Notes under the pieces: model-generated
What the model was told of the DNA's origin: nothing
Databases searched by the model: none
Seen by the model: only the letters and a program-made list of their open reading frames with translations
DNA from: Lutibacter sp. B1
GTDB lineage: Bacteria > Bacteroidota > Bacteroidia > Flavobacteriales > Flavobacteriaceae
Reading direction: 5' to 3'
NCBI RefSeq assembly: GCF_012524075.1
Contig: NZ_JAAZUI010000007.1
Span: 62,001-126,000 of the forward strand
Length of the DNA: 64,000 nucleotides
Translations under genes and position numbers: made by a program
Shown: positions 4,650-23,213 of the stretch, in pieces
Numbering within the stretch: position 1 is the stretch's first letter
How the letters are laid out: every line of letters begins with the position of its first letter

Positions 4650-4661
4650 TGATTTTTATCA
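4650..4661 (+). promoter_or_regulatory. CRP/FNR-type operator upstream of the nos cluster
   Basis: The 12-base perfect inverted repeat TGAT-TTTT-ATCA has the TGAT-N4-ATCA core recognised by FNR-like regulators (consensus TTGAT-N4-ATCAA). Its centre, 4655.5, lies 29.5 bases before the first base of the -7 element at 4685. That places it near -41 relative to the expected transcript start, the class II activator position. The same box type at the same spacing precedes the methylmalonyl-CoA decarboxylase operon. Confidence 0.6.
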
Positions 4662-4684
4662 TATTTTAAATGCTTGTACAATAG

Positions 4685-4692
4685 TACTTTTG
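4685..4692 (+). promoter_or_regulatory. -7 promoter element of the nos cluster
   Basis: TACTTTTG matches TAnnTTTG. The spacer holds a TTG exactly eight bases upstream (4674-4676) but no -33 TTTG at the normal distance, as expected for an activator-dependent promoter. The leader to the first ATG is about 28 bases. Confidence 0.6.
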
Positions 4693-4724
4693 CGATTAAC
4701 AAACTTAACAAACAAACAAAAACA

Positions 4725-5303
4725 ATGAAAAAAATCAAACTAATCTTTCCAATTTTAGCAGTATTGGCACTTTTTTTAGTCTCCTGCGGCGGAAATGAAA
4801 AAAAACAAGAAGTTAAGGAAACTTCAACAGAAGCAGTTCCAGAAGAAAAAGGACAATCTACAGTTGTAGACAACGTTTCAGCAGCAAACGCTTTACAAGT
4901 AGCAAAATCTCTAGATGATTTTAAAACATTAGTTGTAGCAATTGAGGCTGCCGGCGTAGAAGATGCCGTTGTAAATGTAGGCCCGCTTACAATATTTGCA
5001 CCAGTAAATGCCGCTTTCGACAAGTTACCAGAAGGAACTGTGGAATCTTTGTTACAACCTGAAAACAAAGAAAAATTGGCGTTTATATTAAAAAATCATG
5101 TAGCTCCAGCAAACTATCCTGATACACAACTTAAAAAAGAAGCTAAAAAAGGACGTAAGTTATATATGGCTTCTGGAAAATATTTAGTTGTTGAAAATAA
5201 GGAAGATGGTATTTATGTTGGTGGAACAAAAGTATTAAAAACAGTACAAGTAAGTAATGGTTGGATTCACGTAATTGACAACGTTTTAGTTCCAGCCGAA
5301 TAA
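4725..5303 (+). CDS. Fasciclin (FAS1) domain lipoprotein, first gene of the nos cluster
   Basis: The 192-residue protein has a lipoprotein signal ending in LVSC with Cys21, a charged linker to about residue 55, and one FAS1 domain with its two typical motifs: TIFAPVNAAFDKLP near residue 89 and a C-terminal segment ending WIHVIDNVLVPAE. FAS1 domains bind surfaces or other proteins; no enzymatic role is known. ATG 4725 is chosen because the signal peptide begins there; the longer in-frame start at 4674 lies upstream of the promoter. It is followed within 29 bases by a cytochrome c and then nosZ, so it is probably co-expressed with N2O reductase. Its job there is unknown. Confidence 0.85.
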   Translation: MKKIKLIFPILAVLALFLVSCGGNEKKQEVKETSTEAVPEEKGQSTVVDNVSAANALQVAKSLDDFKTLVVAIEAAGVEDAVVNVGPLTIFAPVNAAFDKLPEGTVESLLQPENKEKLAFILKNHVAPANYPDTQLKKEAKKGRKLYMASGKYLVVENKEDGIYVGGTKVLKTVQVSNGWIHVIDNVLVPAE

Positions 5304-5332
5304 TTAATTTAAGAATAAATAATAACTAAAAA

Positions 5333-5797
5333 ATGAAATTAAAAGTATTAGTAGTAGCATTAGTTGTAGCAATTGTATCTAGCTGCGGAAGTGATGGAAA
5401 AAAAGAGGAAAAATCAACAACTCCTAACCAAGAACAAAAAGAAGTAGTTGAAGTTGACCCAATGAAAGACAAAGGTATAGGACCTATAACAAGTATTACT
5501 CTTGCTGAAATTGACGAGGCAATGGCCGAGGAAGGTAAAGCAATATTTACTTCAAAATGTTCTGCTTGTCATAAAATGAGCAAACGTTTTGTTGGACCTG
5601 GTTTGGCAGGAGTTACAGAAAGAAGAACTCCTGAATGGATAATGAACATGATTCTAAATCCTGAAGAAATGGTTGAAAAAAACCCAATAGCAAAACAATT
5701 ATTAGCTGAGTATTTATCTCCAATGGCAAACCAAAGTTTAACGGAAAAAGAAGCTAGATTAATTTTAGAATACTTTAGAACAGTAAAAGCTGAATAA
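5333..5797 (+). CDS. Monoheme c-type cytochrome lipoprotein of the nos cluster
   Basis: The 154-residue protein has a lipoprotein signal (VSSC, Cys18), a Glu/Lys/Pro-rich linker, and a class I cytochrome c domain. The heme motif CSACH is at residues 76-80 and a likely axial Met131 lies in SPMANQSL. It sits between the FAS1 lipoprotein and nosZ, 36 bases before nosZ, so it is the obvious candidate for electron delivery to the CuA site of NosZ in the periplasm. That role is inferred from position and from cytochromes in other clade II nos clusters. No nosR-like or nosC-type quinol module is present. Confidence 0.88.
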   Translation: MKLKVLVVALVVAIVSSCGSDGKKEEKSTTPNQEQKEVVEVDPMKDKGIGPITSITLAEIDEAMAEEGKAIFTSKCSACHKMSKRFVGPGLAGVTERRTPEWIMNMILNPEEMVEKNPIAKQLLAEYLSPMANQSLTEKEARLILEYFRTVKAE

Positions 5798-5833
5798 GCA
5801 TTAACACAAACTATAAAACAAACAATTAATAAT

Positions 5834-7810
5834 ATGAAAACAATTTTTAAGTCTTTACTTGCAATTACAGTACTTTCAATAGTATATAGTTGTGGTAATG
5901 GAGGTTCAAATAAAGGATCTCAAGGTGCACTATCAAGTAGTGCTGCAGAGAAAGTTTATGTAGCTCCAGGTGAACATGATGAATTTTATGCTTTTGTATC
6001 AGGAGGTTTTAGTGGACAATTAGCGGTTTATGGTCTTCCATCTGGACGTTTATTTAAAGTAATTCCTGTTTTTTCAGTTGATGCTGAAAAAGCGTATGGT
6101 TTTAACGAAGAAACAAAACCAATGTTAAATACTTCTCACGGATTTATTCCTTGGGATGACTCTCACCATCCAGACATTTCGCAAACTGCAGGTGAATTAG
6201 ACGGCCGTTGGGTATTTATTAATGGTAACAATACACCTCGTATTGCTAAAATTGATTTAACAACTTTTGAAACTACAGAGATTATTGAAATTCCAAATTC
6301 AGCAGGTAACCACAGTTCATCTTTTGTAACTGAAAACACTGAATATGTTGTTGCTGGTACGCGTTTTTCTGTACCTTACCCTCAAAGAGATATGCCAATT
6401 GATGAGTACAAAGGAAACTTTAAAGGTGCTTTAACTTTTATTTCTGTTGACCCTGAAGATGGTGGAATGGATTTAAAATTCCAAATAATGATGCCTGGTT
6501 TTAACTACGACTTATCGCACCCAGGAAGAGGAAAATCTCACGGATGGTTTTTCTTTACAACATATAATACTGAAGAAGCTAACTCATTATTAGAAGTAAA
6601 CGCTTCTCAAAACGATAAAGATTTTATTGCAGCTATTAACTGGAAAAAAATTGAAGAATATGTGAATAATGGTGGAGGAACAAAAGCCCCAACTAAATAC
6701 GCACATAACGTTTATGACGAGCATACACATACTGCTACATCAACTATAAAAGAAGAAGTAGTTGTCGTAAACCCATCTGATGTTCCTGGAGCAATTTATT
6801 TCTTACCAACACCAAAATCTCCTCACGGTTGTGATGTTGATCCTTCTGGTGAATATATTATTGGTAGTGGTAAATTAGCAGCTGAATTAACAGCACATTC
6901 ATTTACAAAAATGTTAGCAGCTATTGAAGGTAAGAAATTTGATGGAGATGCATACGGAATTCCTATTTTACAATACGACGAAATTTTAGCAGGTGCTGTA
7001 AAACAACCTGGTTTAGGCCCATTACATACAGAATTTGACGGACAAGGTAATGCATATACTACATTCTTTATTTCTTCAGAAGTTGTAAAATGGAAATTAG
7101 GAACTTGGGAAGTAATTGACAGAAAACCAACGTACTATTCTGTAGGTCACTTAATGGTTCCTGGAGGAAATTCAAGAAAACCATTTGGTAAATATGTATT
7201 AGCAATGAATAAAATTACTAAAGACCGTTATTTACCTACTGGTCCTGAAGTAACACAATCTGCACAATTATATGATATCACAGGTGAAAAAATGGAGCTA
7301 TTGTTAGATTTTCCAACAATTGGTGAGCCACATTATGCTGCAGGTATTCCAGCAGATTTAATAAAGCCTAATTCTAAAAAAATATACAAATTAGAAGATA
7401 ACAAACACGAATTTGCTGTTAAGAGTGAAGCTGAAACAAAGGTTGTTAGAAATGGTAACGAAGTTCATATTTATATGACTATGATTCGTTCTCACTTTGC
7501 ACCAGATAATATTGAAGGAGTTCAAGTTGGTGATAAAGTATATTTCCACGTAACAAACTTAGAACAAGATTACGATGTTCCTCACGGAATTTCTATGATT
7601 GGAGCTAACACATCTGAACTATTAATTATGCCAGGACAAACTGAAACATTTGTTTGGGAACCTAAGCAAGTTGGTGTATGGCCATTCTATTGTACAGATT
7701 TCTGTTCAGCATTACACCAAGAAATGCAAGGTTATGTGAGAGTCTCTCCAAAAGGATCTGATGTTCCAATTACTTATACATTGGATGGTGACCCTGTAGA
7801 TGCAGAGTAA
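5834..7810 (+). CDS. nosZ: Nitrous oxide reductase NosZ, clade II (Sec-dependent, lipoprotein type)
   Basis: The 658-residue enzyme reduces N2O to N2 in the periplasm. It has a seven-bladed propeller carrying CuZ ligands, seen in DDSHHPDIS near residue 113, NHSSSF near 158, PGRGKSHGW near 230 and EPHYAA near 500. A C-terminal cupredoxin domain holds the CuA ligands His584, Cys620, Cys624, His628 and Met631. The N-terminus lacks a twin-arginine motif and instead ends in VYSC (Cys20). This marks the Sec-exported clade II form and suggests lipid anchoring. It is preceded by two other lipoproteins and followed by accessory genes. Confidence 0.97.
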   Translation: MKTIFKSLLAITVLSIVYSCGNGGSNKGSQGALSSSAAEKVYVAPGEHDEFYAFVSGGFSGQLAVYGLPSGRLFKVIPVFSVDAEKAYGFNEETKPMLNTSHGFIPWDDSHHPDISQTAGELDGRWVFINGNNTPRIAKIDLTTFETTEIIEIPNSAGNHSSSFVTENTEYVVAGTRFSVPYPQRDMPIDEYKGNFKGALTFISVDPEDGGMDLKFQIMMPGFNYDLSHPGRGKSHGWFFFTTYNTEEANSLLEVNASQNDKDFIAAINWKKIEEYVNNGGGTKAPTKYAHNVYDEHTHTATSTIKEEVVVVNPSDVPGAIYFLPTPKSPHGCDVDPSGEYIIGSGKLAAELTAHSFTKMLAAIEGKKFDGDAYGIPILQYDEILAGAVKQPGLGPLHTEFDGQGNAYTTFFISSEVVKWKLGTWEVIDRKPTYYSVGHLMVPGGNSRKPFGKYVLAMNKITKDRYLPTGPEVTQSAQLYDITGEKMELLLDFPTIGEPHYAAGIPADLIKPNSKKIYKLEDNKHEFAVKSEAETKVVRNGNEVHIYMTMIRSHFAPDNIEGVQVGDKVYFHVTNLEQDYDVPHGISMIGANTSELLIMPGQTETFVWEPKQVGVWPFYCTDFCSALHQEMQGYVRVSPKGSDVPITYTLDGDPVDAE

Positions 7811-7841
7811 TAAATAAAATGAATTATTAAAAAGCAATTTT

Positions 7842-7875
7842 AAACGGGCAAGGAATTAAAACTACTTGTCCGTTT
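7842..7875 (+). terminator. Hairpin downstream of nosZ (terminator or attenuator)
   Basis: AAACGGGCAAG at 7842-7852 pairs with CTTGTCCGTTT at 7865-7875, with one mismatch and a 12-base loop. Only a weak T-rich run follows, so partial termination or 3'-end stabilisation of the lipoprotein-nosZ mRNA is more likely than a complete stop. Confidence 0.5.
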
Positions 7876-7982
7876 ATAATAAACTGTCATAAAAAAAACG
7901 AAAATCTAATAATTTTCAACATAAGTTTTTAAAATTAACTTTCAGCAGATTTTAAATTAATATTAAAACTTAAAAATAAGTA

Positions 7983-8570
7983 ATGAAAAAATCTAAATTA
8001 TTAATGATAATAGGTTCGCTTCTATTATTAGGTTTGTTTGTATTTCCTTTATGGAATATAACTTTAGAAGCGCCTCAATATCCTACACCTTTAGGAATGG
8101 ATATTTATATAAACAAATTTGCTGATACACACGAATTTGATATTAAAAACATCAACTTAATGAATCATTATGTTGGAATGCAATACATCCCTGAAACCAT
8201 TCCAGAGTTTAAAATATTTCCAATAGCTATATTGGTTATGTCTGCTTTAGGAGTTATTATTGGTTTTTTAGGTAATCACAAACTATTTTTAGTGTGGTTT
8301 GTAGTAATGGCTCTACTAGGAGTTGCAGGTATGTATGATTTTTATTTATGGGAATACGATTATGGTCATAATTTAGATCCAAAAGCAATTATGACTTTTA
8401 AAAATCCGGATGGTTCTGTAATGGGATTTCAACCTCCATTATTTGGTTCAAAAGATATTTTGAATTTTAAAGCGCATTCATATCCAAGATTAGGAGCGTA
8501 CTTTTTATTTGTTGGAATGTTTATGACTTTAACAGCCTTTTTCATTGGGAAAAAAGAACCAAAATCCTAA
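7983..8570 (+). CDS. Membrane protein of the nos cluster, unknown function
   Basis: The 195-residue protein has an N-terminal membrane helix (about 7-25), a periplasmic segment rich in aromatic residues, two central helices near 80-120 and a final helix near 170-190. It holds the place taken by the membrane protein NosB in epsilonproteobacterial nos clusters, but I cannot show homology from sequence alone. The loops contain several His, Met and Tyr residues (NLMNHYVGMQY, YDYGHNLD), so metal or quinol-side chemistry is possible but unproven. It lies between two hairpins and may be transcribed at a different level from nosZ. Confidence 0.65.
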   Translation: MKKSKLLMIIGSLLLLGLFVFPLWNITLEAPQYPTPLGMDIYINKFADTHEFDIKNINLMNHYVGMQYIPETIPEFKIFPIAILVMSALGVIIGFLGNHKLFLVWFVVMALLGVAGMYDFYLWEYDYGHNLDPKAIMTFKNPDGSVMGFQPPLFGSKDILNFKAHSYPRLGAYFLFVGMFMTLTAFFIGKKEPKS

Positions 8571-8591
8571 TTAAAATTTTACTTAAATTTC

Positions 8592-8625
8592 AAAACGGAT
8601 ATAACTTTCAAAATATATCCGTTTT
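8592..8625 (+). terminator. Perfect 12-bp hairpin between the nos membrane protein and nosL
   Basis: AAAACGGATATA at 8592-8603 is perfectly complementary to TATATCCGTTTT at 8614-8625, with a 10-base loop and a terminal T4. It could end transcription in part before nosLDFY. Confidence 0.6.
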
Positions 8626-8661
8626 AATGTATATTTACAATACTATTAAAATCAAAAAATA

Positions 8662-9108
8662 ATGAATACAAAATTTCTTCAGCCATTTATTGGCATAATT
8701 ATACTTTTGCTTACAATTTCGTGTAAAGTTGAACCTCAACCTATTGAGTTTGGAAAAGATCAATGTAGTTTTTGTGTAATGAATATTGTTGATAAAACAC
8801 ATGCAGCACAATACGTTACCAAAAAAGGGAAACAATTTAAATTTGATGCTATTGAGTGTTTAGTAAACGATTTAAGTGAAAAAAACGAAGATGAATTAGC
8901 CATTATTTTAGTTTCAGATTACGGAAACCCTGGAAACATGATTGAAGCTAAAACTGCAACTTATTTAATTAGCATAGAAATAAAAAGCCCAATGGGCGCA
9001 AATCTTTCAGCGCTGTCAACTTTGGAAAAAGCGAAAGAACTTCAACAAAAACATACAGGTGAATTATATACTTGGGAAACATTAAAAGAAAGACTTTCTG
9101 ACAAATAA
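8662..9108 (+). CDS. nosL: Copper chaperone lipoprotein NosL
   Basis: The 148-residue protein carries a lipoprotein signal ending in TISC (Cys21) and the NosL copper-binding motif CSFCVM at residues 35-40. A repeated alpha-beta domain with FDAIECLV near residue 65 and SPMGANLSAL near 113 follows. NosL delivers Cu(I) to apo-NosZ in the periplasm together with the NosDFY transporter. The stop is two bases before the nosD ATG, so nosL-D-F-Y form a tight operon. Confidence 0.93.
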   Translation: MNTKFLQPFIGIIILLLTISCKVEPQPIEFGKDQCSFCVMNIVDKTHAAQYVTKKGKQFKFDAIECLVNDLSEKNEDELAIILVSDYGNPGNMIEAKTATYLISIEIKSPMGANLSALSTLEKAKELQQKHTGELYTWETLKERLSDK

Positions 9109-9110
9109 TT

Positions 9111-10349
9111 ATGAATAAAATTAGCCTTCTCCTTTTTTTGTTTACTATTTCATTTTCACAAGCCAAACAAATTGAAGTTTGTAATACTTGTGAAATTTCA
9201 ACCATTAAAAAAGCTATAGAATTGGCTGAAAATGGTGATGAAATATTTATAAAAAAAGGTGTTTATAAAGAAAATGATATTGAGGTTAACAAAGAAATAA
9301 CTATTTATGGTGAAGAAGGAACTATTTTAGATGGCACAAATAACGGAAGTGTTCTTCATGTAACAGCTAACAATTTTGCTATTAAAAACATAAAAATTAT
9401 AAATGTTGGTGTAAGTTACACCAAAGATTTTGCTGCAATTAAAGTAGTTAGATGCGAGAATTTCACAATTGAAAATGTTGTTCTTGACCAGATATTTTTT
9501 GGTATTTTAATTGAAAAATCTCATTATGGTAAAATTCTAAATAACACATTATCAAGCACTGCAAAAGACGAAGCAAATTCAGGAAATGGTATTCATATTT
9601 GGCACAGTTCAAATATGGAAGTGGAAGGAAATGAAGTTTTCGGAATGCGTGACGGAATCTATTTTGAATTTGTGACTGAAAGTAAAATTCACAACAATTT
9701 AAGTCACGACAATATACGTTACGGATTACATTTTATGTTTTCCAATAACGACACCTATTACAATAATGAATTTAAAAATAATGGTGCAGGTGTTGCAGTT
9801 ATGTTTTCAAAATTCATAACCATGTATCAAAACAAATTTTTACACAATTGGGGCTCGGCATCCTACGGTTTGTTACTGAAAGAAATTTACGACACTCAAA
9901 TTTATAACAACCTTTTCCAAGAAAACACCATTGGAATTAAAGGTGAAGGTTGCACACGAATTAACTACAAAAACAATACATTTTTAAGAAACGGATGGGC
10001 AATTAAAATTGCAGGTGCTTGTTATACAAATATTTTTGAGAACAACGATTTTATGCATAACTCGTTGGATTTAGCTTATAACACAAAAGTAAACGACAAC
10101 CGTTTTGAAAATAATTATTGGAGTGAATATACTGGATATGATTTAGATAATGACGGTATTGGAGATGTTCCTTACCGACCTGTTAAATTATTTTCGTACG
10201 TTGTTAATAAAACTCCTGAAGCACTTGTTTTATTAAGAAGTTTGTTTGTTGATATTATCAACTTTTCAGAGAAAGTTTCACCGGTTTTTACTCCTAATGA
10301 TTTAATGGATAAAAATCCTAAAATGAAAAAAAACAATGATTCAATTTAA
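9111..10349 (+). CDS. nosD: Periplasmic copper-maturation protein NosD
   Basis: The 412-residue product has a Sec signal (about residues 1-19), then a right-handed beta-helix of parallel repeats (CASH/PbH1 type) recognisable by repeated G-I/G-A-x-x-N-x-F strand turns. Its C-terminus is a DLDNDGIGDVPYRP segment near residue 345 that is typical of NosD. NosD works with NosF and NosY to assemble the CuZ cluster of NosZ. Its end overlaps nosF by 14 bases, which implies translational coupling. Confidence 0.95.
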   Translation: MNKISLLLFLFTISFSQAKQIEVCNTCEISTIKKAIELAENGDEIFIKKGVYKENDIEVNKEITIYGEEGTILDGTNNGSVLHVTANNFAIKNIKIINVGVSYTKDFAAIKVVRCENFTIENVVLDQIFFGILIEKSHYGKILNNTLSSTAKDEANSGNGIHIWHSSNMEVEGNEVFGMRDGIYFEFVTESKIHNNLSHDNIRYGLHFMFSNNDTYYNNEFKNNGAGVAVMFSKFITMYQNKFLHNWGSASYGLLLKEIYDTQIYNNLFQENTIGIKGEGCTRINYKNNTFLRNGWAIKIAGACYTNIFENNDFMHNSLDLAYNTKVNDNRFENNYWSEYTGYDLDNDGIGDVPYRPVKLFSYVVNKTPEALVLLRSLFVDIINFSEKVSPVFTPNDLMDKNPKMKKNNDSI

Positions 10350-11043
10350 AAATATACATAAACGTTTTGGCAAATTAACGGTGTTAGATGGTTTGGATTT
10401 GGATATTAAAAAAGGTGGAATTTTTGCCATTTTAGGTCCAAATGGATCAGGAAAAACTACTTTGATAAAATGTTTATTAGGAATGGTAATTCCTAATAAA
10501 GGCGACATTACATTTGAAGGAAAAAGTGTGCTAAAAAAATGGGAATACCGTAACAATTTAAATTACTTGCCTCAAATAGCAAACTTCCCTCCTAACTTAA
10601 CTGTTATTGAGTTGATTAATATGGTGAAAAATCTTCGCCCTAAAAGTTCAAACGAACAAGAATTAATTCAGCTTTTTGGTTTAAAAAGTTTTTTAAATAA
10701 AAAATTAGGAAACCTTTCAGGCGGAACAAAACAAAAGGTAAATCTTGTTCTTACATTTATGTTTGATAGTGATTTAATTATTTTAGATGAACCAACTACA
10801 GGCTTAGATCCAATTTCTTTAATTCATTTAAAAGAACTAATTCAAAAAGAAAAAGAAAAGGGTAAAACTATTTTAATTACCACTCATATTATGAGTTTTG
10901 TTAATGAAGTTGCCGATGAAATTGTGTTCTTGTTAGATGGAAAAATATATTTTAAAGGAAGTATAGATGAGCTTAAAAAACAAACCAACAACAACAATTT
11001 GGAACACGCAATTGCTAATTTAATATCTAAACAATATGCTTAA
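10336..11043 (+). CDS. nosF: ABC transporter ATP-binding protein NosF
   Basis: The 235-residue ATPase has Walker A GPNGSGKT at residues 34-41, the signature LSGGTKQK near 132, Walker B LIILDEPTTGLDP near 150 and an H-loop ITTH near 182. It powers the NosDFY complex required for CuZ assembly. It overlaps nosD by 14 bases and nosY by 8 bases. Confidence 0.95.
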   Translation: MIQFKNIHKRFGKLTVLDGLDLDIKKGGIFAILGPNGSGKTTLIKCLLGMVIPNKGDITFEGKSVLKKWEYRNNLNYLPQIANFPPNLTVIELINMVKNLRPKSSNEQELIQLFGLKSFLNKKLGNLSGGTKQKVNLVLTFMFDSDLIILDEPTTGLDPISLIHLKELIQKEKEKGKTILITTHIMSFVNEVADEIVFLLDGKIYFKGSIDELKKQTNNNNLEHAIANLISKQYA

Positions 11044-11818
11044 AATATTAAAATATAGTTTTTACGATTTAATGCGTAGCCGCTGGAGTTACGTATACTT
11101 TTTATTTTATCTATTACTTGGTTTTGTATTGCTATTTTTAAACAACGATGTAAACAAAGCAGTAATTACATTAATGAATATTATAATTGTTTTAACACCA
11201 CTAATTGGAACCATTTTTGGTGTAATGTATTACTACAATTCAAAGGAATTTACTGAACTTTTATTAGCACAACCCATCAATAGAAAAAAAATATTTATGG
11301 GGCAATATGTTGGTATTTCATTATCCCTGACACTTAGTTTGGTACTAGGTTTAGGAATACCATTTATATTATATGGTTTATTTAAATCTACTGCCATTTT
11401 TAACTTTACATTACTATTAATTGTCGGTTCTTTTTTAAACTTTATTTTTGTAGCACTATCGTATAATATTGCACTTTCTACCGAAAATAAAATTAAAGGC
11501 TTTGGTTATGCTATTTTAATGTGGCTATTTTTAGCAGTAATTTATGACGGCGTTTTCTTAATTTCGCTTGTAATGTTTGATGAATATCCGTTAGATAAAT
11601 TTTCATTAATTGCAACAATGCTAAATCCTATAGATTTATCTAGAATTTTAATTTTATTAAAACTCGATATTTCAGCTTTATTAGGTTATACAGGAGCTGT
11701 ATTTAGAAAATTTTTTGGAACCAATTTTGGAATGCTAATTTCAATGTCCATTTTAGTTTTATGGGTAATTTTTCCGATTTTTAGAATGAATAGAAAATTA
11801 AAACGAAAAGATTTTTAA
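11036..11818 (+). CDS. nosY: ABC transporter permease NosY
   Basis: The 260-residue permease has six predicted membrane helices, roughly at 19-36, 42-63, 90-115, 125-145, 160-180 and 232-250. A conserved TELLLAQPINRKKIFMGQY cytoplasmic stretch near residue 73 is typical of NosY/ABC-2 permeases. It is the membrane partner of NosF and NosD and closes the nos cluster. A strong intrinsic terminator follows about 35 bases downstream. Confidence 0.94.
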   Translation: MLKILKYSFYDLMRSRWSYVYFLFYLLLGFVLLFLNNDVNKAVITLMNIIIVLTPLIGTIFGVMYYYNSKEFTELLLAQPINRKKIFMGQYVGISLSLTLSLVLGLGIPFILYGLFKSTAIFNFTLLLIVGSFLNFIFVALSYNIALSTENKIKGFGYAILMWLFLAVIYDGVFLISLVMFDEYPLDKFSLIATMLNPIDLSRILILLKLDISALLGYTGAVFRKFFGTNFGMLISMSILVLWVIFPIFRMNRKLKRKDF

Positions 11819-13611: not shown

Positions 13612-15744
13612 TTATTCTTGCTCTAAATACTTATCCATAATAGTAATGGCTGCTTCAGAAATAACAGTACCTGGACCAAAAATAGCTGCTACTTTTCTTT
13701 CTAATAAATAATCATAGTCTTGCGCAGGAATAACTCCACCTGCAAAAACCATTATATCTGGTCTTCCTAATTTTTCTAACTCTTCAATTAATTGAGGAAT
13801 TAAGGTTTTATGACCTGCTGCTAAACTTGAAGCTCCTACAAAATGCACATCGTTTTCAATGGCTTGTTTTGCAACTTCTTCAGGAGTTTGGAACAAAGAT
13901 CCCATATCAACATCAAAACCTAAATCTGCAAAACTTGACGCAACAACTTTGGCACCTCTATCGTGACCATCTTGCCCCATTTTTGCAATCATTACTCTTG
14001 GTCTACGCCCTTCAATTTCAGCAAATTTATCTGCCAATTTTTGAGCTTTTACAAAAATACTATCGTTATTTACCTCTTTACTATACACACCACTTATTAA
14101 ATTAGTATCTGCTTTATGACGACCAAAATGAACTTCTAAAGCATCGGAAATTTCGCCTAAAGTAGCAAAATTTTCAGCTGCTTCAACTGCCAAGGCTAAT
14201 AAATTTCCTTTTCCAGTTTCTGCACATTTAGTTAATGCTGCTATATTTGTATCAACTACAGCTTGATCTCTATTTGCTCTTAGTTTTTTCAAACGTTCAA
14301 TTTGTGAATTTCTAACTACTGTATTATCAACTTCTAAAATTTCAATGTCTGATTTTTCAGCAGTTTGAAATTTATTTACGCCAACTAAAATATCTTGACC
14401 CGAGTCTAAACGTGCTTGTTTACGAGCCGAAGCTTCTTCAATACGCATTTTTGGAACTCCAGTTTCAATGGCTTTTGCCATTCCACCTAGTTCTTCAACT
14501 TCTTCAATTAATTTCCAGGCTTTTTTAGCAATTTCTTGTGTTAAATATTCAACATAATAACTTCCAGCCCAAGGATCAACCGCTTTTGTAATTTGCGTTT
14601 CATCTTGAATGAAAATTTGCGTATTACGTGCAATGCGAGCCGAGAAATCTGTTGGCAATGCAATTGCTTCATCCAATGCATTTGTATGTAAACTTTGAGT
14701 TCCTCCTAAACCTGCAGCCATTGCTTCAATACACGTACGAGCCACATTATTAAAAGGATCTTGTTCACTTAAACTCCATCCAGAAGTTTGACTGTGCGTA
14801 CGCAACGCCATTGATTTTGGGTTTTGTGGATTGAATGATTTTATGATTTTTGCCCAAAGCATACGTGCAGCACGCATTTTTGCAATTTCCATAAAGTGGT
14901 TCATTCCAACTGCCCAGAAGAAAGATAATCTAGGTGCAAATTCATCTATTTTTAAACCCGATTTTAATCCGGTTCTAATGTACTCCATACCATCGGCCAA
15001 GGTATAAGCTAACTCAATATCCGCAGTTGCACCAGCTTCTTGCATATGGTAACCACTAATTGAAATGGAGTTGAATTTAGGCATATTGTTGGTGGTGTAC
15101 TCAAAAATATCACCAATAATTTTCATTGAAGGTAATGGTGGATAAATGTATGTGTTACGCACCATAAATTCCTTTAAAATGTCATTTTGGATGGTTCCAG
15201 AAAGTTTATCTAAAGAAACACCTTGTTTTTTGGCAGCAGCAATGTAAAATGCCATAATTGGCAACACAGCACCGTTCATTGTCATAGAAACCGACATTTT
15301 ATCTAGCGGAATTTGATCGAACAAAATTTCCATATCTAAAATAGAATCTATGGCAACACCGGCTTTACCAACATCACCTGTTACACGTGGATGATCGGAA
15401 TCGTAACCACGATGTGTAGCTAAATCAAAAGCAACAGACAACCCTTTTTGACCTGCCGCTAGGTTTCTTCTGTAAAAAGCATTTGATTCTTCGGCAGTTG
15501 AAAAACCTGCATATTGACGTACAGTCCAAGGGCGTGAAACATACATTGTGCTGTAAGGTCCTCTTAAAAAAGGAGGAACACCAGCAGCAAATCCTAAATG
15601 CTCAGCTTTTGAAATATCTTCTTTTGAAAAATGCTTTTTTACTGGAATTCCTTCAGGTGTATTCCAAACATCTTGATTCTCTGATTTTGCAACAGTTTGT
15701 TTTACTGCTGAATTTAATGTTATATCTGAAAAATCTGGTTTCAT
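13612..15744 (-). CDS. mutB: Methylmalonyl-CoA mutase, large (catalytic) subunit
   Basis: The 710-residue protein has the CoA-binding TIM barrel with the [20 protein letters not shown] region near residue 98. A C-terminal B12-binding domain carries DGHDRG with the lower-axial His594, and a [12 protein letters not shown] motif near residue 670. It interconverts R-methylmalonyl-CoA and succinyl-CoA with adenosylcobalamin. It begins four bases after the small-subunit stop and is the last gene of the operon, followed by a bidirectional terminator. Confidence 0.97.
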
Positions 15745-15748: not shown

Positions 15749-17557
15749 TTAAGCTTTAATTGTTTGTTGAATTTTTTGCTGAATACTTGCTATTGTTTCA
15801 ATAACATCTGATCGCATATTTACACAACCGTTTAAACCAGCTTTTGTTAATTCATCCATATTTGATGGCGCTCCTGCCAATAGCAGAACTTTATCACTGT
15901 TTAGTGCCCTAAATGTTTTTACAAAAGACATTGCACTTTCATCATAATCTTCATCTGAACTACAAATAACTACAACAGCAGCTTCAGATTTAGCACTTGT
16001 TTCAGCAGCTTCTATTGCAGATGCATAGCTTTTTTCTTGCTGAACATTAAAACCACTTACTCCAATAAAATCATATGCAAAAGCAGCTCTTGCCTTACGC
16101 ATTGTTAAATTACCAAAACTTGAAAGTTCAACTATTGGTCGGTGGTTTGTTTGCGCAACAATGTTTTCTGTAACTTTTCGTAAAGCTTCAATTTCTAATG
16201 TGGCTCTTCTTGGTTTTAAAAGTTTGCTATTAGATGCCGAAGGCATGTCAGATAAAATACCGGCAGCAACAGTTTCCATTAAATTTGGATATTTGTTAAC
16301 TCCAACCATTGCAAGTCTTCGTTGACTTAATAGTTTTAGTTTTTCTAAGCGTATTTCGGCAATTTGGCTTTGAATTAACTCGCTTTCAAAAGCTTCATAA
16401 AAACCTCCTTTTGCTTCAATTTCTTTAAAAAGTTCTAATGCTTTTTCTGCGATTTTAATACTTACTTCTTCAATATAATAAGAACCGTCAACCGGATTTG
16501 AAACTTTTCCAAAATAAGATTCTTCTTTTAGTATTGTTGTTATATTTCCGGCTATTCTGCTTGAAAAATCTGTTGAATCATTAAATTCTTTATCATAAGC
16601 ATCAATTAAAACACCATCAACATTTCCTAAAATTGCTGACATTGCTTCTGTTGTTGAACGAAGCATATTTGTATTGGCATCTGTAATTGATTTACTCCAA
16701 ATAGAAGTTTTAGCAGTTAATGAATGTGAAAAAATTGTAAGATTGTATTTTTTAGCAACTTCATGCAATAAATTGTTAAAAGCTCTAAATTTTCCTATTT
16801 CAATAAAATATTCAGAACCAATTGCTAATTGAAAATGCAGATTGTCAAAAATAGTTTGAACAGCAATTTCTTTAGTTGTTAATTTTTCAATTAAAAAAAC
16901 CAAAGAATTTAATGTATATGCAATTTCTTGTACTTGATTTGCACCAGAATCTAAATATTCTCTACCCGAAATTGAAACAGATTTAAAGTTTGGATACTCT
17001 GCACTTAATTTTACAAGTTCTACAACTTTGTCAAATTGAGTTTCATCTAAATTTCCTTTGGTTACATAATCTGAGATTAATTTTAAATCAAAATAACCTT
17101 TAAGGCTTTTTTTATTGAGGTTACTTTCTTTTATAAAAGCAAAGAAATCGGTAGCAAAAGCAACTTCACCAGTTGTTAAAATAAATGAAACAGCTATTTT
17201 AGTTAAGTCAATACCTTTTAAAAGGTTTTTTGCTGATACGTTTTGTTTTATATCAAAAAGTAATCCGTTAATTCCTTCTTCAATAGCTTTTAAAGCTAAT
17301 GTATTTCCACTTTTCTCTGATGTTGTGGTAATACATCTGTAGTTAATCAAAGATTGAGAATTTTCTCCGGTGTTTTTTAAATATTCTTTTTTGTCTTCTG
17401 CATTGTAAAAAGGTTGAATGTCAATTTTGCTCAAGTTTTTCCAAACAAGTTTTCTGTTGAAATCGGCTCCTTTTAAGTCAATGTTCACTTTTTCTATCCA
17501 TTCCTGTTTTGTAACAGGTCCGAAATCTGAAAAAAGCGGTTTATTTTTATCATTCAT
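15749..17557 (-). CDS. mutA: Methylmalonyl-CoA mutase, small subunit
   Basis: The 602-residue protein is a shorter paralogue of MutB with the same barrel plus a degenerate B12-like domain. At the position of DxHxxG there is no such motif (the region reads [11 protein letters not shown]), so it cannot bind cobalamin and serves as the structural partner of the heterodimer. Barrel signatures such as [21 protein letters not shown] near residue 195 remain. It lies 67 bases downstream of the CoA-transferase and four bases before mutB. Confidence 0.95.
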
Positions 17558-17624: not shown

Positions 17625-18914
17625 TTATTTAACCATTAAACTACTTCCAAATCTATCAAAAATAGCTTTGTCTAGTTCTTCTCTATGATCTGGGTGAGCA
17701 ATGTCTCTTAGTGATTGTGCGCGTTGTTTTAGGTTTCTTCCAAACAATTCAGCAACACCGTATTCTGTTGCTACAAATCTTGCATGTGCACGAGTTGTTA
17801 CAACTCCAGCACCTTGTTTTAGCATAGGAACAATTTTTGAAACTCCTTTTAATGTTGTAGAAGTTATCGCAATAATTGGTTTTCCTCCTATTGATAAAGC
17901 AGCTCCTCGCATAAAATCCATTTGCCCTCCAACTCCAGAAAACATTCTTGTTCCAATTGAATCGGCACAAACTTGTCCTGTGATGTCAATTTCAATAGCT
18001 GAATTAATTGCAGTTGCTTTTGGATTTTGACGAATAATAGCAGTATCATTAACATAGGCAATATCTTTCATTTCAATTTCAGGATTGTCATCCATAAAAT
18101 CGTATAATCGACGCGTACCCATAGCAAAACCAGATACTATTTTATAAGGATTTACTTTTTTTTGTGATCCGTTTACCACACCTTTTTCAACTAAATCAAC
18201 AATTCCTTCTGAAAACATTTCAGTATGAACACCTAAATTTTTATGATTGGTCAAAAAAGTTAATACCGCATTTGGAATACCTCCAATACCCATTTGAAGC
18301 GTAGCGCCATCATCAATTATTTCGGCAATATTTTTACCAATTGCTTTTTCTTCTTCAGAAGGTGCAACAAATTTCATTTCATGAATTTCCTCTTCCACTA
18401 ATACACAAGCACTAAAATTATTTAAGTGAACTAATGCATCTCCAAAAGTACGAGGCATATGAGAGTTTATTTGTGCAATTACAGTTTTTCCTTGTTCAAT
18501 TCCTGAGATTACAATATCTACAGAAACTCCTAAGGAACAAAATCCATGTTTATCCGGTGGAGATACATTTACTAAAACAACATCTAAATCCATATATCCT
18601 TGACGGAATAAACTTGGAATATCACTTAAGAAAATTGGAATATAATCAGCGGTATCTCCAACCATTTTTCTGATATTTCCTCCAATAAAAAATGCGTTTG
18701 TATGGAAACTATCTCTAAATTCAGGTTTAGTATATCCACACTCTCCTTCAGTGTGAAGGTGTACAATTTCTACTCCTTTTAATTCAGGAGCACGTTCAAC
18801 CATTGCTTTAACTAAAGTTTGTGGCGTAGCCGACCCTCCTTGAATTAATACTCTATCTCCTGATTTTATTAGTTTAACAGCTTCTTGGGCTGTCATTATA
18901 TTTGGTATGTTCAT
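17625..18914 (-). CDS. Acetyl-CoA hydrolase/transferase family CoA-transferase (likely propionyl-CoA:succinate)
   Basis: The 429-residue protein is a class I CoA-transferase of the acetyl-CoA hydrolase/4-hydroxybutyrate CoA-transferase family. The likely catalytic Glu232 lies in HTEMFSEG. Conserved loops include GGSATPQ near residue 26, MGIGGIPNAV near 208 and GVGGQMDF near 330. Position between the decarboxylase and the mutase points to moving CoA between succinate and propionyl-CoA, which would close the cycle without ATP. Acetate or butyrate specificity cannot be excluded from sequence. Confidence 0.9.
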   Translation of the reverse strand: MNIPNIMTAQEAVKLIKSGDRVLIQGGSATPQTLVKAMVERAPELKGVEIVHLHTEGECGYTKPEFRDSFHTNAFFIGGNIRKMVGDTADYIPIFLSDIPSLFRQGYMDLDVVLVNVSPPDKHGFCSLGVSVDIVISGIEQGKTVIAQINSHMPRTFGDALVHLNNFSACVLVEEEIHEMKFVAPSEEEKAIGKNIAEIIDDGATLQMGIGGIPNAVLTFLTNHKNLGVHTEMFSEGIVDLVEKGVVNGSQKKVNPYKIVSGFAMGTRRLYDFMDDNPEIEMKDIAYVNDTAIIRQNPKATAINSAIEIDITGQVCADSIGTRMFSGVGGQMDFMRGAALSIGGKPIIAITSTTLKGVSKIVPMLKQGAGVVTTRAHARFVATEYGVAELFGRNLKQRAQSLRDIAHPDHREELDKAIFDRFGSSLMVK

Positions 18915-18970
18915 ATTTATTTAAAATTTAAAATTTGTTGTTATGTTGGTTTTAAACAACTAATAATTAA

Positions 18971-20296
18971 TTATCCTAAAAAACTTAATATAATACCCGC
19001 AGCTATAGCTGATCCAATTACACCGGAAACGTTAGGTGCCATTGCGTGCATTAATAAATAATTGTGTGGATCAGACTTTAAACCTTCGGTATGTACAACT
19101 CTCGCACTATCCGGAACAGCAGAAACTCCTGCCGCACCAATTAGTGGATTGATTTTATTATCTCCTTTAAGAAATAAGTTCATTAATTTGGCAAAAAGTA
19201 AACCGCCCATTGTTGCTATAACAAAAGAAATAGCTCCAAGTCCAAATATTAATAAAGAATCTTTTGTTATAAAAATATCTGCTTGTGTTGATGCTCCTAC
19301 AGTAACTCCTAAAAGAATGGTAACTATATCAATTAATTTGGTACGTGCAGTATCTGCAAGTCTTTCTGTTCTACCGGATTCTTTTAGTAAATTTCCAAAA
19401 AATAACATACCTAATAAAGGTAATGAACTTGGTGAAATAAATGTTGTTAGTATTAATGCTGCAACAGGAAATATCATTTTTTCTTTTTGAGATACCGCCC
19501 TTGGTGGTTTCATTCTTATTTTTCTATCTTTCTTAGAGATTAATAATCTCATTATAGGCGGTTGAATAACCGGAACCAATGCCATATAAGAATAAGCTGC
19601 AATTGCAATTGGGCCAATTAAGTTTTTTACAGTTGTGCCATCTGGTAATATATTTATGCCATTTGCAAGTTTAGATGAAAGGAAAATTGCGGTAGGGCCG
19701 TCTGCTCCACCAATTATTCCAATAGCGCCGGCTTCCGGAAGGTTGAACCCTAAATAAAGAGCTCCTAAAAATGTAGCAAAAACACCAATTTGTGCAGCTG
19801 CTCCTAAAAGCATTAATTTTGGATTGGCTATTAACGAAGAAAAATCCGTCATAGCTCCAATACCTAAAAATATAAGTGGCGGATAAATACCTTTTACCAC
19901 ACCAAAATACAGATAGTTTAATACAGAACCGGTTTCGTAAATACCTGTTTGATTTCCTGCAACAAATGGAATATTACCAAGTATTACACCTATACCTATT
20001 GGTATTAGAAGTAGAGGTTCATAATCATATTTTATTCCTAAAAAGATAAATATAATTCCAATAATAATCATAATTAAATTACCGGAAGTAGCATTTGCGA
20101 AACCTGTATAATTATAAAATTGTTTAATTCCTTCAAAAGCACCATTATAAGAATTTACTTCTTCTATTTGATTATTTTGTTCAACAGAAACTGACGTAGT
20201 TATATTTTCAGCACTTTTATTAGAATTTAAGCCAAGTGCAGGTCTTATAAAAATCAGTAGCGATAGAACACTAAATATTAATAATATTTTCTTCAT
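18971..20296 (-). CDS. mmdB: Sodium-translocating decarboxylase beta subunit (methylmalonyl-CoA type by context)
   Basis: The 441-residue protein begins with a signal-like helix and a polar extension to about residue 55, then about nine or more membrane helices of the OadB/MmdB/GcdB family. Hallmarks are GIIGGADGPTAIFLSSKLA near residue 193 and GAAGVSAVPDSARVVHTEG near 385. The first contains the Asp essential for Na+ transport in the family. It decarboxylates carboxybiotin while exporting Na+. It is surrounded by the alpha, biotin and delta subunits, so methylmalonyl-CoA is the probable substrate. Confidence 0.93.
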   Translation of the reverse strand: MKKILLIFSVLSLLIFIRPALGLNSNKSAENITTSVSVEQNNQIEEVNSYNGAFEGIKQFYNYTGFANATSGNLIMIIIGIIFIFLGIKYDYEPLLLIPIGIGVILGNIPFVAGNQTGIYETGSVLNYLYFGVVKGIYPPLIFLGIGAMTDFSSLIANPKLMLLGAAAQIGVFATFLGALYLGFNLPEAGAIGIIGGADGPTAIFLSSKLANGINILPDGTTVKNLIGPIAIAAYSYMALVPVIQPPIMRLLISKKDRKIRMKPPRAVSQKEKMIFPVAALILTTFISPSSLPLLGMLFFGNLLKESGRTERLADTARTKLIDIVTILLGVTVGASTQADIFITKDSLLIFGLGAISFVIATMGGLLFAKLMNLFLKGDNKINPLIGAAGVSAVPDSARVVHTEGLKSDPHNYLLMHAMAPNVSGVIGSAIAAGIILSFLG

Positions 20297-20324
20297 TTTT
20301 TTCTTTTTTATAAATGAGAATGTC

Positions 20325-20744
20325 CTATTCTAATTCAATCATTAATTCGTTTTGTAATACTTGTTGTCCAACACTAATATTAATGGCAGTAATGGTACCT
20401 GGTTTTTCACAAACAATATTGTTTTCCATTTTCATAGCTTCTAAAACTAACATGCGATCACCAACTTTTATTGTATCACCAACTTTAACATCAATTGATA
20501 AAACAATACCTGGAATTGGAGCAACAATTTTAGTTGTTTGAGATTTTGGATTTACTTTTAATGGTTCCGCAGGCCTTTTTGAAGCTGCACGAACAAGTGT
20601 TGGAGTTTTTGTTTTCTTAATTTCCTGCTTTAGTTCTACATCATAAGAAGTACCATTTACTTCTAAATTAATGATGTTATCTTCGTGAGATTTTATATTA
20701 ACTGTGTACCCAGTTTCGTTTACTTTGAATTTATAAGTTTTCAT
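20325..20744 (-). CDS. mmdC: Biotin carrier (gamma) subunit of methylmalonyl-CoA decarboxylase
   Basis: The 139-residue protein has a beta-rich N-terminal part, a basic/proline linker (about 43-70) and a biotinyl domain with the motif EAMKME, biotinylated Lys105. It carries carboxybiotin from the carboxyltransferase to the membrane beta subunit. It starts three bases after the delta-subunit stop, in an uninterrupted gene row. Confidence 0.92.
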   Translation of the reverse strand: MKTYKFKVNETGYTVNIKSHEDNIINLEVNGTSYDVELKQEIKKTKTPTLVRAASKRPAEPLKVNPKSQTTKIVAPIPGIVLSIDVKVGDTIKVGDRMLVLEAMKMENNIVCEKPGTITAINISVGQQVLQNELMIELE

Positions 20745-20747
20745 ATT

Positions 20748-21107
20748 TTATAATCTATTATGTGTTCCATAAATTTTAGAACTCCAAGGTGAATATGTTT
20801 TTTTAACTTGTTTAATTGTTAAAATTGCGCTTTCGTGATCGTGTTGTTCATTCATATACATATGAACAGCAGCACCAATTGCCGCAGCAATTTCACCGGT
20901 AAAATTGCGGTCAGATTTTAATGAAATTTCGGTAATTTTTTTATCTTTTCTTCTTGTTATTACTTTATATATGTATAACATAATTGGTAATGCATATTTG
21001 AAGAATAATGAAAGTAAAATTAAAGCGCTAAAAACAATTATCAATCCTGTAATCAAGATAACGTATCCTTCGCTAATTTGATCTGTAAATAAAGGTAGAA
21101 ACATCAT
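20748..21107 (-). CDS. mmdD: OadG-family delta subunit of sodium-pumping decarboxylase
   Basis: The 119-residue protein has one membrane helix at about residues 14-38 and a cytoplasmic tail with EIAAAIGAAVHMYMNE near residue 72 that is typical of Bacteroidota OadG-like subunits. It ties the soluble carboxyltransferase to the membrane part. Its ATG shares the A of the preceding TAA stop (TAATG), which implies coupled translation with the alpha subunit. Confidence 0.85.
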   Translation of the reverse strand: MMFLPLFTDQISEGYVILITGLIIVFSALILLSLFFKYALPIMLYIYKVITRRKDKKITEISLKSDRNFTGEIAAAIGAAVHMYMNEQHDHESAILTIKQVKKTYSPWSSKIYGTHNRL

Positions 21108-22666
21108 TATAGAGGTATGTTTGAGTGTTTTTTAGGAGGATTTATTTCCTTTTTATTTTGAAGTAATTGCAATGCTCTAATAATTCTGAAACGTGTGTTT
21201 CTAGGCTCAATAACATCATCAATAAAACCATATTTAGCAGCAACATAAGGATTTGCAAATTTTGCATTGTATTCATCCTCTTTTTGCTCTATATAATCTA
21301 GTTTTTCTTCAGCATCTTCTATTTTTCTAATATTAGATCCTTCTAAAACTTCAACAGCTCCTTTAGCTCCCATAACAGCAATTTCTGCTGTTGGCCAAGC
21401 ATAATTTAAGTCTCCACGTAATTGTTTACAACTCATTACATCATGTGCGCCACCATAAGATTTACGGAGTGTAATGGTAACTTTTGGAACAGTTGCTTCT
21501 CCGTATGCAAATAATAATTTTGCTCCGTGAAGAATAATTCCGCCATATTCTTGTCCTGTTCCAGGTAAAAATCCAGGTACATCAACAAGGGTTACAATTG
21601 GGATGTTGAATGCATCACAGAAACGAACAAAACGCGCAGCTTTTCTTGATGCTTCAATATCTAATACACCAGCATAATATTTTGGTTGATTGGCAACAAT
21701 ACCAACAGGGTGACCATTAAATCTTGCAAAACCTACACAAATGTTTCTAGCATAATTTCTATGAACTTCCGTAAATTCTCCATTATCAGTTATAATTGAA
21801 ATTACATCAACAATATCATAAGGTTGATTTGGGTTTTCAGGAATTATTTCATTTAACGCATCTTCTAATCTATCGATAGGATCATCACAAGTAATAATTG
21901 GTGCTTCTTCTAAATTGTTTGATGGTAAGTAACTTAATATTTTACGAACTAATAATAAGTTTTCTTCATCATTTTCTGCTAAGAAATGTGAAACACCTGA
22001 TCTTGTTGAATGTATGTTAGCACCACCTAATTGTTCAGTAGTTACTACTTCACCAGTTACAGTTTGCACCACTTTAGGTCCGGTTACAAACATATAACTT
22101 GTTTGATCTGTCATAATTGTAAAATCTGTTAAAGCAGGTGAATAAACCGCTCCACCGGCACAAGGTCCTAAAATTGAAGAAATTTGAGGTATTACACCGG
22201 AAGCCATAATATTTCTTTGGAAAATTTCAGCATAACCGGCTAATGATCTTACTCCTTCTTGAATACGTGCTCCACCAGAATCATTTAAACCAATTACCGG
22301 AACTCCAATTTTCATTGCCATATCCATAATTTTACATATTTTCATCGCATAAGTTTCAGATAATGAACCTCCAAATACCGTAAAGTCTTGAGCGAAAAGG
22401 TAAACAACTCTCCCATCAATTGTTCCGTGTCCTGTTACAACACCATCAGAAAGATAAATTTCTTTATCTAGTCCAAAAGATTTTGTTCTGTGAGTTACAA
22501 ACATATCAAACTCTTCAAAACTATCTTCGTCTAAAAGTATTTCTATTCGTTCACGAGCAGTTAATTTTCCTTTAGCGTGTTGTGATTCAATACGTTTTTC
22601 ACCTCCACCTAGTTTGGCTTGAACTCTTTTTTCAATGAGTTCATTAATTTTATCTTGATTTGCCAT
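21107..22666 (-). CDS. mmdA: Methylmalonyl-CoA decarboxylase alpha subunit (carboxyltransferase)
   Basis: The 519-residue crotonase-fold carboxyltransferase belongs to the PccB/MmdA group. It has the oxyanion motifs [11 protein letters not shown] near residue 124 and GGAVYSPAL near 172, and [12 protein letters not shown] plus [11 protein letters not shown] in the C-terminal half. It transfers the carboxyl of S-methylmalonyl-CoA to biotin. The same fold works as propionyl-CoA carboxylase beta; the neighbouring OadG/OadB genes decide for the decarboxylase. It begins 16 bases after the epimerase stop. Confidence 0.95.
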
Positions 22667-22682
22667 AATTATATTTATTTAG

Positions 22683-23090
22683 CTATTCTTGTTTAGAGCA
22701 AAGTTCTGTAAGTACCCCATTTGTTGATTTTGGATGAAGAAAACCAATATCTAATCCTTCAGCTCCTTTGCGTGATTCCTTGTCAATTAGTGTTACTCCA
22801 CGTTTTTCTGCTAATTTTAAAGCTTCAGTAGCATTTTTCACAGCAAAAGCAATGTGATGAATTCCTTGACCTTTTTTAGCAATAAACTTACCTATAGGAC
22901 CTTCAGGTGAAGTACTTTCCAATAACTCAATTTTTGTAGTACCTACCAAAAAAAAGGCTGTTTTCACTTTTTGATCAACAACCTCTTCTATAGCGTAGCA
23001 TTTTAGCCCTAAGATTTTTTCATAGTATTTAATTGATTCTTCTAAATTATCTACTGCAATTCCAATGTGTTCAATATGAGATATATTCAT
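22683..23090 (-). CDS. mce: Methylmalonyl-CoA epimerase (paralogue 2), first gene of the propionate operon
   Basis: This 135-residue vicinal-oxygen-chelate protein has EHIGIAVDNL near residue 7 and GIHHIAFAV near 78, and ends with GVLTELC. It supplies the S epimer for the decarboxylase or the R epimer for the mutase. It is collinear with the copy at 224-625, but the two differ at many positions. This copy heads the operon with the decarboxylase and mutase genes, so it is the likely pathway-dedicated isozyme. Confidence 0.93.
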   Translation of the reverse strand: MNISHIEHIGIAVDNLEESIKYYEKILGLKCYAIEEVVDQKVKTAFFLVGTTKIELLESTSPEGPIGKFIAKKGQGIHHIAFAVKNATEALKLAEKRGVTLIDKESRKGAEGLDIGFLHPKSTNGVLTELCSKQE

Positions 23091-23169
23091 AATTAGGATG
23101 TTTTTAAATTTTATTCTCTCAATTAGTTCTAAAAAGAGTGTGAAGTTTTAATTATTTTAAGTTAGAGAA

Positions 23170-23177
23170 CAAAATTA
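23170..23177 (-). promoter_or_regulatory. -7 promoter element of the propionate operon
   Basis: The minus strand reads TAATTTTG, matching TAnnTTTG, with a TTG exactly eight bases upstream as at the nos promoter. The leader to the epimerase ATG is about 75 bases. No -33 TTTG is seen at the normal distance. Confidence 0.55.
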
Positions 23178-23199
23178 GAATATAGCAATTCTTAAAAAG

Positions 23200-23213
23200 A
23201 TGACAGATGTCAT
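23200..23213 (-). promoter_or_regulatory. CRP/FNR-type operator of the propionate operon
   Basis: ATGAC-AGAT-GTCAT is a perfect 5-bp-arm inverted repeat with a four-base spacer. Its core TGAC-N4-GTCA resembles FixK/DNR/FNR boxes. Its centre, 23206.5, lies 29.5 bases from the first base of the -7 box at 23177, identical to the nos promoter. Confidence 0.55.

Follow-up and report, generated by a model that had tools for sequence, protein, structure and literature searches.

Lutibacter sp. B1 carries two anaerobic gene clusters on opposite strands of a 64,000-nucleotide stretch of contig NZ_JAAZUI010000007.1 (positions 62,001 to 126,000; hereafter the window): an operon for nitrous oxide (N2O) respiration (nos) and an operon for sodium-coupled propionate metabolism. 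An earlier note on this DNA had proposed that one oxygen- or nitric oxide (NO)-responsive regulator of the CRP/FNR type activates both. Do the two promoters really belong together, and which protein would act on them? Comparison of sequences across relatives suggests that the nos and propionate operons are very probably driven by class II promoters of one low-oxygen regulon, with an FNR-like protein as the main activator. This conserved FNR-like regulon is real and larger than the proposed nos/propionate pair.

In the nos promoter, a predicted activator box TGATTTTTATCA (4650-4661, + strand) precedes the -7 element TACTTTTG (4685-4692, +; predicted transcript start 4697). In the propionate promoter, the predicted box TGACATCTGTCA (23212-23201, - strand) precedes the -7 element TAATTTTG (23177-23170, -; predicted transcript start 23165). 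Both read TGAY-N4-RTCA, exactly 23 nucleotides (nt) and TAnnTTTG, and in both the centre of the box is 29.5 nt from the first base of the -7 element. Neither 23-nt spacer contains the TTTG needed for a -33 element. The earlier note had given these positions, distances and the missing -33 TTTG correctly to the base. It had also pointed to a TTG at eight bases before the -7 element, which is indeed present in both promoters; however, among the 11 sites with a 23-nt gap in this genome only these two carry it, and we rejected the TTG as a promoter feature and ascribe it to chance. A third site with the same geometry had been missed: a predicted box TGATTATTATCA (26119-26108, -) and, after a 23-nt gap, a -7 element of the TAnnTTTA type, TACTTTTA (26084-26077, -), upstream of a gene for an uncharacterised 119-residue protein (25682-26041, -; no NCBIfam match).

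Work on FNR and CRP of Escherichia coli places class II activators at about -41.5, and E. coli FNR class II promoters carry TTGAT-N4-ATCAA centred at -41.5. If the first base of the -7 element lies at -12, as it does in the published transcript-start map of Flavobacterium psychrophilum, where the described TAnnTTTG occupies -12 to -5 (PMC9723704), then the distance of 29.5 nt puts the box centre at a predicted -41.5. The palindromic half-sites and their constant spacing from a sigma promoter element support the CRP/FNR-type class II geometry that had been proposed, and the predicted centre agrees with it. The Lutibacter promoters resemble E. coli FNR class II promoters in the core of the box, in the 29.5 nt from its centre to the base at -12 and in their low-oxygen targets, but differ in having the Bacteroidota -7 element TAnnTTT(G/A), C or T as the fourth base of the half-site, and a free base before TGA.

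Within the window alone the two promoters could pass for a coincidence. Boxes number five against 3.64 expected, a count reached or exceeded in 30 of 100 shuffles, and TAnnTTTG occurs 122 times against 125 expected; with counts at chance level, coincidence is not judgeable from 64 kb. The earlier note had suggested a genome-wide search, and we scanned all 194 contigs (3.42 Mb) for the pair, with the same pattern read in reverse as a control. A box, a gap of 20-26 nt and TAnnTTTG gave 19 matches against two in the control, which indicates a real promoter class. When gaps of 8-38 nt were allowed, there were 34 matches against five, distributed as 11 at 23 nt, four at 22, three at 24 and 16 scattered among the remaining 28 lengths; the Poisson probability of 11 or more at a single gap is about 3e-11. 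With TAnnTTTA as the -7 element and gaps of 22-24 nt, 16 further matches appeared against one in the control, 15 of them at 23 nt, and so it seems that activator-dependent promoters can do with A where the last G would stand. Since some palindromic boxes are read in both directions, the 35 matches represent 32 distinct boxes (17 with TAnnTTTG and 15 with TAnnTTTA). Relaxing the box to TGA-N6-TCA at gaps of 22-24 nt gave 24 matches, only six above the strict 18, with three in the control, indicating that the Y and R letters matter. The position before TGA varies, with T in two of the 19 matches.

An alignment of both promoters across related genomes had likewise been suggested. We gathered the loci by protein similarity and not by the presence of a site. 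In the case of the propionate operon, we scanned named genomes with an alignment of the epimerases from eight orthologues; among the best 80 of 405 loci, 79 were usable (the upstream region of L170 is too short). These 80 come from Lutibacter, Winogradskyella, Maribacter, Formosa, Polaribacter, Confluentibacter, Aureibaculum and other genera, the nearest named epimerases among them being those of Lutibacter and of an unclassified Flavobacteriaceae genome. A box, exactly 23 nt and a -7 element are found at 75 of the 79 named loci (63 with TAnnTTTG and 12 with TAnnTTTA). In a second set of 16 family loci whose carboxyltransferase is at least 79% identical, 13 sites are strict, our own included (L068-L079 and L081), and one locus, L080, is cut by a contig edge. 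The nos set comprises the 30 best loci of the fasciclin gene that heads the operon in Lutibacter sp. B1, our own included, from 122 of 199 family genomes with a match, and nosZ lies beside the fasciclin gene in all 30. Here 25 sites are strict, three have TAnnTTTA, one has a single box mismatch and one locus retains the box alone (L042). Thus both promoters are conserved across relatives: 29 of the 30 nos loci (four of them near-matches) keep the layout, all at a gap of 23 nt. The nos box precedes the first gene of the operon, which is often a cytochrome gene instead of the fasciclin gene.

Gaps of 15-30 nt were permitted at these loci, yet every strict match at the nos and propionate loci has a gap of 23 nt. 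In the alignment of 75 propionate promoters, the commonest base has an average share of 0.89 in the eight specified box positions and 0.97 in the -7 element against 0.54 in the spacer, and across 29 nos promoters the values are 0.91, 0.98 and 0.51, respectively; the box and -7 letters are partly fixed by the search pattern, while the loci themselves were picked by protein. The upstream regions of the 62%-identical carboxylase paralogues (L084-L097) yielded no strict site, but they are a weak control: most of these genes are not the first of their operon, so that the promoter is perhaps beyond the stretch that was read, and L096 is cut by a contig end.

The same pair is widespread. In 199 genomes of the family, gaps of 19-27 nt gave 2069 sites against 343 in the control, and a gap of exactly 23 nt gave 1409 against 29, with sites in 173 of the 199 genomes. 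The excess in 116 members of the class outside the family (653 against 44 at gaps of 22-24 nt) indicates that the promoter class is general in the class. The idea that nos and propionate genes are paired under shared regulation is thus supported as far as the sharing goes; the two are no special pair, since about 32 boxes exist in the genome and the layout is class-wide. A chance origin of the matches, with which the counts in the window agree, is contradicted by the genome, family and orthologue data and by the exact conservation of the 23-nt gap, and is scarcely credible.

The genes behind the other sites of the genome point to a common theme. One site precedes ccoS of the cbb3 oxidase, with a ccoN-like gene (named by eye) behind it, and another precedes a copper P-type ATPase gene that is divergent from the gene of the FNR-like protein described below. 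Further sites lie before genes for a ResB-like cytochrome-c biogenesis protein, an ATP-type phosphoenolpyruvate carboxykinase (PEPCK), a flavodoxin-domain protein, a multihaem cytochrome, Usp, SulP and an OmpP1/FadL porin. The alpha subunit of a 2-oxoacid:acceptor oxidoreductase and a YfhL-type ferredoxin score over their cut-offs. Matches below the cut-off comprise pyruvate phosphate dikinase (PPDK), pyruvate:ferredoxin (PFOR) and indolepyruvate:ferredoxin (IOR) oxidoreductases, a PhsA/formate-dehydrogenase-like molybdopterin enzyme, a TtrB/NrfC-like Fe-S protein, an OGOR-delta-like ferredoxin, a FeoA-like protein, a rhodanese and a histidine kinase; several of the downstream protein reads are cut by the locus end, which lowered their scores. 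The proteins downstream of L013, L017, L210, L220, L221 and L222 gave no family match, no gene could be assigned to the L030 and L218 sites, and the L212 site looks like chance. The cbb3 oxidase, PFOR, IOR, PEPCK and PPDK fit a low-oxygen theme, and so these downstream genes support this part of the earlier proposal. Consistent with it, the cbb3 oxidase of F. psychrophilum is described as strongly induced under oxygen limitation (PMC9723704), and the culture data reported in PMC10939381 include slow growth of a Lutibacter isolate without oxygen and propionate and succinate in Lutibacter and Maribacter cultures after four days of anoxia. Separately, a TTTA-type site (L213, G000:C76:53166-53208) lies about 240 bases before a gene for a family-11 glycosyl hydrolase (xylanase); the xylanase gene could be an odd member of the low-oxygen regulon, or the site could be chance.

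We then investigated which protein might bind these boxes. Twelve proteins of the genome match the cNMP-binding domain, and four of them have, by eye, the Glu...Arg recognition helix expected for TGA half-sites. Three of these (L001, L002 and L004) are fusions of a receiver domain with a CRP-type protein (receiver-CRP), and the fourth, L003, is an FNR-like protein of 228 residues. The L003 gene (C194:58205-58888; L003:1399-2085) adjoins the cbb3-oxidase (cco) genes and the copper-ATPase gene, and sites occur in this region. Of the 199 family genomes, 127 have a match to L003 at E <= 1e-30, and in 117 of these it reaches E <= 1e-56. In all 30 of the best-matching orthologue loci (L098-L127), cysteines C4, C7, C53 and C106 are invariant, as are E191 and R195 of the recognition helix, and the protein combines a cNMP-binding-like domain with a helix-turn-helix, as FNR does. 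Its profile matches FNR of Aliivibrio fischeri with E about 1e-32 to 1e-31. The predicted model (pLDDT 85.8) superposes on holo-FNR of that species (PDB 5e44) with a TM-score of 0.83, and its best structure match is a Crp/Fnr protein of Porphyromonas gingivalis (2gau). L003 thus shares with A. fischeri FNR the fold, the CxxC near the N-terminus and the Cys at the 106 position; unlike that protein, to which it is 28% identical, it has no third N-terminal Cys and has C53 where A. fischeri FNR has Ala. L003 is most likely the main regulator of the boxes. In 28 of the 30 orthologues there is an extra Cys at position 59, which is absent from the Lutibacter protein.

Is there indeed one regulator, as had been proposed? 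The FNR-like protein is the best candidate, although the receiver-CRP proteins have a similar helix. It is possible, if on balance doubtful, that a phosphorylated receiver-CRP (L001, L002 or L004) is the main activator, responding through a kinase to the redox or energy state, and that the FNR-like protein plays a lesser part. By eye, all three share the Glu and Arg of the FNR-like recognition helix; directly behind the receiver-CRP gene L004 there is a site (L019) that precedes a Usp gene, and a histidine-kinase gene near L002 has its own TTTA site (L211). We compared the mean number of sites in the 156 of 199 genomes of at least 2.5 Mb, ten genomes with weak FNR-like matches being counted as lacking the FNR-like protein. 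Site numbers follow the presence of the regulators: the mean is 16.8 in genomes with both (n = 49), 12.0 with receiver-CRP only (n = 35), 9.9 with the FNR-like protein only (n = 59) and 3.9 with neither (n = 13), while the control means are 1.3-2.3. Genomes with receiver-CRP but no FNR-like protein at E <= 1e-56 keep the nos box at ten loci (eight strict and two with TTTA), as this alternative would predict. On the other hand, FNR-only genomes also retain the nos box (six of eight strict) and, as seen above, many sites, and the cbb3 and copper-ATPase genes adjoining the FNR-like gene carry sites, all of which argues against receiver-CRP as the main activator. The simplest reading of these sequences is that either regulator can work the same promoter; alternatively, a third CRP/FNR protein may serve the nos boxes in the receiver-CRP-only genomes. 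In G153 (C4:315872) and G027 (C1:368288), too, the receiver-CRP gene has a site in the position seen at L004. In the relatives G061, G071, G110, G121, G134, G159 and G173, no more than about 2 kb separates the FNR-like gene from the receiver-CRP gene.

The earlier note had left the signal as either oxygen or NO. Sensing of NO by a DNR/NnrR-like protein would recall Nitrosophilus labii (Campylobacterota), for whose clade II nos genes PMC11539149 proposes a Dnr-type Crp/Fnr protein with an NO signal and negative control of nosZ. However, the genes behind the sites belong to general anaerobic metabolism (cbb3 oxidase, PFOR, IOR, PEPCK and PPDK) and the candidate L003 has four invariant cysteines, which favours oxygen and makes an NO sensor improbable. 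Control by a catabolite-type regulator with cyclic AMP (cAMP) is a little less probable still: TGA-N6-TCA fits CRP half-sites as well, and the L003 model also matches cAMP-bound CRP-type structures, but the invariant cysteines and the low-oxygen gene content speak against it.

The sites, their geometry and conservation, the downstream genes and the conserved cysteines were observed directly; for the binding protein, the signal, the direction (activation) and the cluster we infer the following. Both operons would be driven by activator-dependent class II promoters of one low-oxygen regulon. A CRP/FNR-type dimer on TGAY-N4-RTCA at -41.5, most likely the FNR-like L003, would replace the missing contact at the -33 TTTG and, exactly 23 nt further on, keep RNA polymerase and its primary sigma factor on TAnnTTT(G/A). 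An activator that contributes to the contact with polymerase would account for the tolerance of TTTA in the -7 element. In L003, C4, C7, C106 and C53 probably bind an Fe-S cluster that is oxygen-labile. A fall in oxygen would then switch on the high-affinity cbb3 oxidase, N2O respiration, ferredoxin-dependent 2-oxoacid oxidoreductases and PEPCK/PPDK, as well as the succinate-to-propionate pathway with its Na+ pump, and these boxes are probably used by the receiver-CRP response regulators too. It is quite possible, if short of probable, that this fixed 23-nt class II geometry underlies an anaerobiosis regulon common to Flavobacteria, and probably to Bacteroidia as a whole, in which a variant FNR, its third cluster ligand moved from the N-terminal loop to C53 of the beta-roll, and receiver-CRP two-component regulators have been interchangeable at the boxes over evolution, the nos box being kept while genomes lost one or the other.

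Several observations weigh against assigning both operons to an oxygen-sensing FNR-like protein. Classical FNR binds its cluster through three N-terminal cysteines (CxxCx5C) and one internal cysteine; L003 has no third N-terminal Cys, and it scores far under the NCBIfam Fnr cut-off (PRK11161, 87.7 against 228 bits). As it departs from the classical ligand pattern and stays below this cut-off, we call it FNR-like. Ten of the 30 nos loci and one of the 16 methylmalonyl-CoA decarboxylase (mmd)-type loci are in genomes with receiver-CRP and no FNR-like protein at E <= 1e-56, so that a box can be conserved in its absence. The deeper mmd loci L082 and L083 have no box though their genomes encode the FNR-like protein, and propionate loci L163, L203, L205 and L206 have none either. 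The comparison of site counts ignores shared ancestry, genomes with neither regulator are still slightly above their control (3.9 against 2.3), and in the 43 smaller genomes the mean is 4.3 sites against 1.0 in the control. In the cultures described in PMC10939381, Lutibacter and Maribacter also made propionate and succinate in the presence of oxygen, two days of anoxia yielded negligible volatile acids, and Maribacter did not grow anoxically; Maribacter genomes nevertheless carry the boxed propionate operon.

How does this compare with known systems? Low-oxygen control of nos by CRP/FNR proteins is already known in Proteobacteria, and Crp/Fnr control has been proposed for a clade II nosZ in Campylobacterota. 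FixK2 controls nosRZDYFLX in Bradyrhizobium (PMC5582078), and FnrP and NNR take part in nos control in Paracoccus, as described in PMC11539149. The Lutibacter nos genes resemble these proteobacterial ones in their probable CRP/FNR-type activator (the described ones respond to low oxygen, and to NO), but in Lutibacter the nosZ is of clade II and belongs to one regulon with a propionate pathway that pumps Na+. N. labii also has a clade II nosZ and TTGA-N6-TCAA boxes, although the exact-match boxes given for it sit 48-49 nt upstream of predicted starts. In the sediment metagenomes described in PMC6264515, Rrf2-type regulator genes are enriched beside clade II nos genes, and an nnrR-like Crp/Fnr gene is described in a single Bacteroidetes-assigned nos scaffold, with Rrf2 beside other clade II scaffolds. 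Among the six open reading frames upstream of nos in our window, to which the search was confined, there is no Rrf2-type nos regulator. Our literature search, which covered open-licence papers, found no description of an FNR regulon in Flavobacteria, no joint control of nos with the propionate pathway and no account of how Flavobacteriaceae switch to life without oxygen. PMC10939381 describes members of this family as dominant facultative anaerobes of permeable marine sediments. A fixed box-gap-promoter rule would make the anaerobic switch predictable in many genomes, the regulon would tie N2O removal to propionate fermentation, and L003 points to a possible variant oxygen sensor.

The nos operon (+ strand) begins with the gene for a fasciclin-domain lipoprotein (4725-5303; PF02469), followed by a c-type cytochrome gene (5333-5797; PF00034) and nosZ (5834-7810), which encodes a Sec-dependent, clade II nitrous-oxide reductase (TIGR04246, 940.8 bits against a cut-off of 625). 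An uncharacterised protein of 195 residues without a Pfam match (7983-8570) is encoded between nosZ and nosL (8662-9108), and then come nosD (9111-10349), a nosF-like ABC ATPase gene (10336-11043) and a nosY-like permease gene (11036-11818), all four assigned with Pfam, the permease match being under its cut-off.

The propionate operon (- strand) starts with methylmalonyl-CoA epimerase (22683-23090; TIGR03081 over cut-off). The Na+-pumping methylmalonyl-CoA decarboxylase follows, with its mmdA-like carboxyltransferase subunit (21107-22666; PF01039; TIGR01117 mmdA at 794 bits, under the cut-off of 999), gamma subunit (20748-21107; PF04277), biotin carrier (20325-20744; PF00364) and Na+-translocating beta subunit (18971-20296; PF03977; TIGR01109 over cut-off). 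Behind it lie a CoA-transferase (17625-18914; PF13336) and the small (15749-17557; PF01642) and large (13612-15744; PF01642; PRK09426 over cut-off) subunits of methylmalonyl-CoA mutase. The alpha, beta and gamma subunits, the biotin carrier, the epimerase and the mutase are thus all present, as in an operon of the Na+-pumping decarboxylase.

A general scan for sigma-70 promoters and terminators was uninformative for this phylum. Just upstream of the propionate box there is a perfect hairpin of ten pairs with a loop of four (23225-23248, -; folding z-score -3.3), which may terminate the upstream gene, whose end is at 23460, or serve as an operator. The nos and propionate operons also lie on opposite strands within about 20 kb of each other in two relatives (G047, contig 87, and G025, contig 1), and this closeness may reflect shared transfer or co-regulation.

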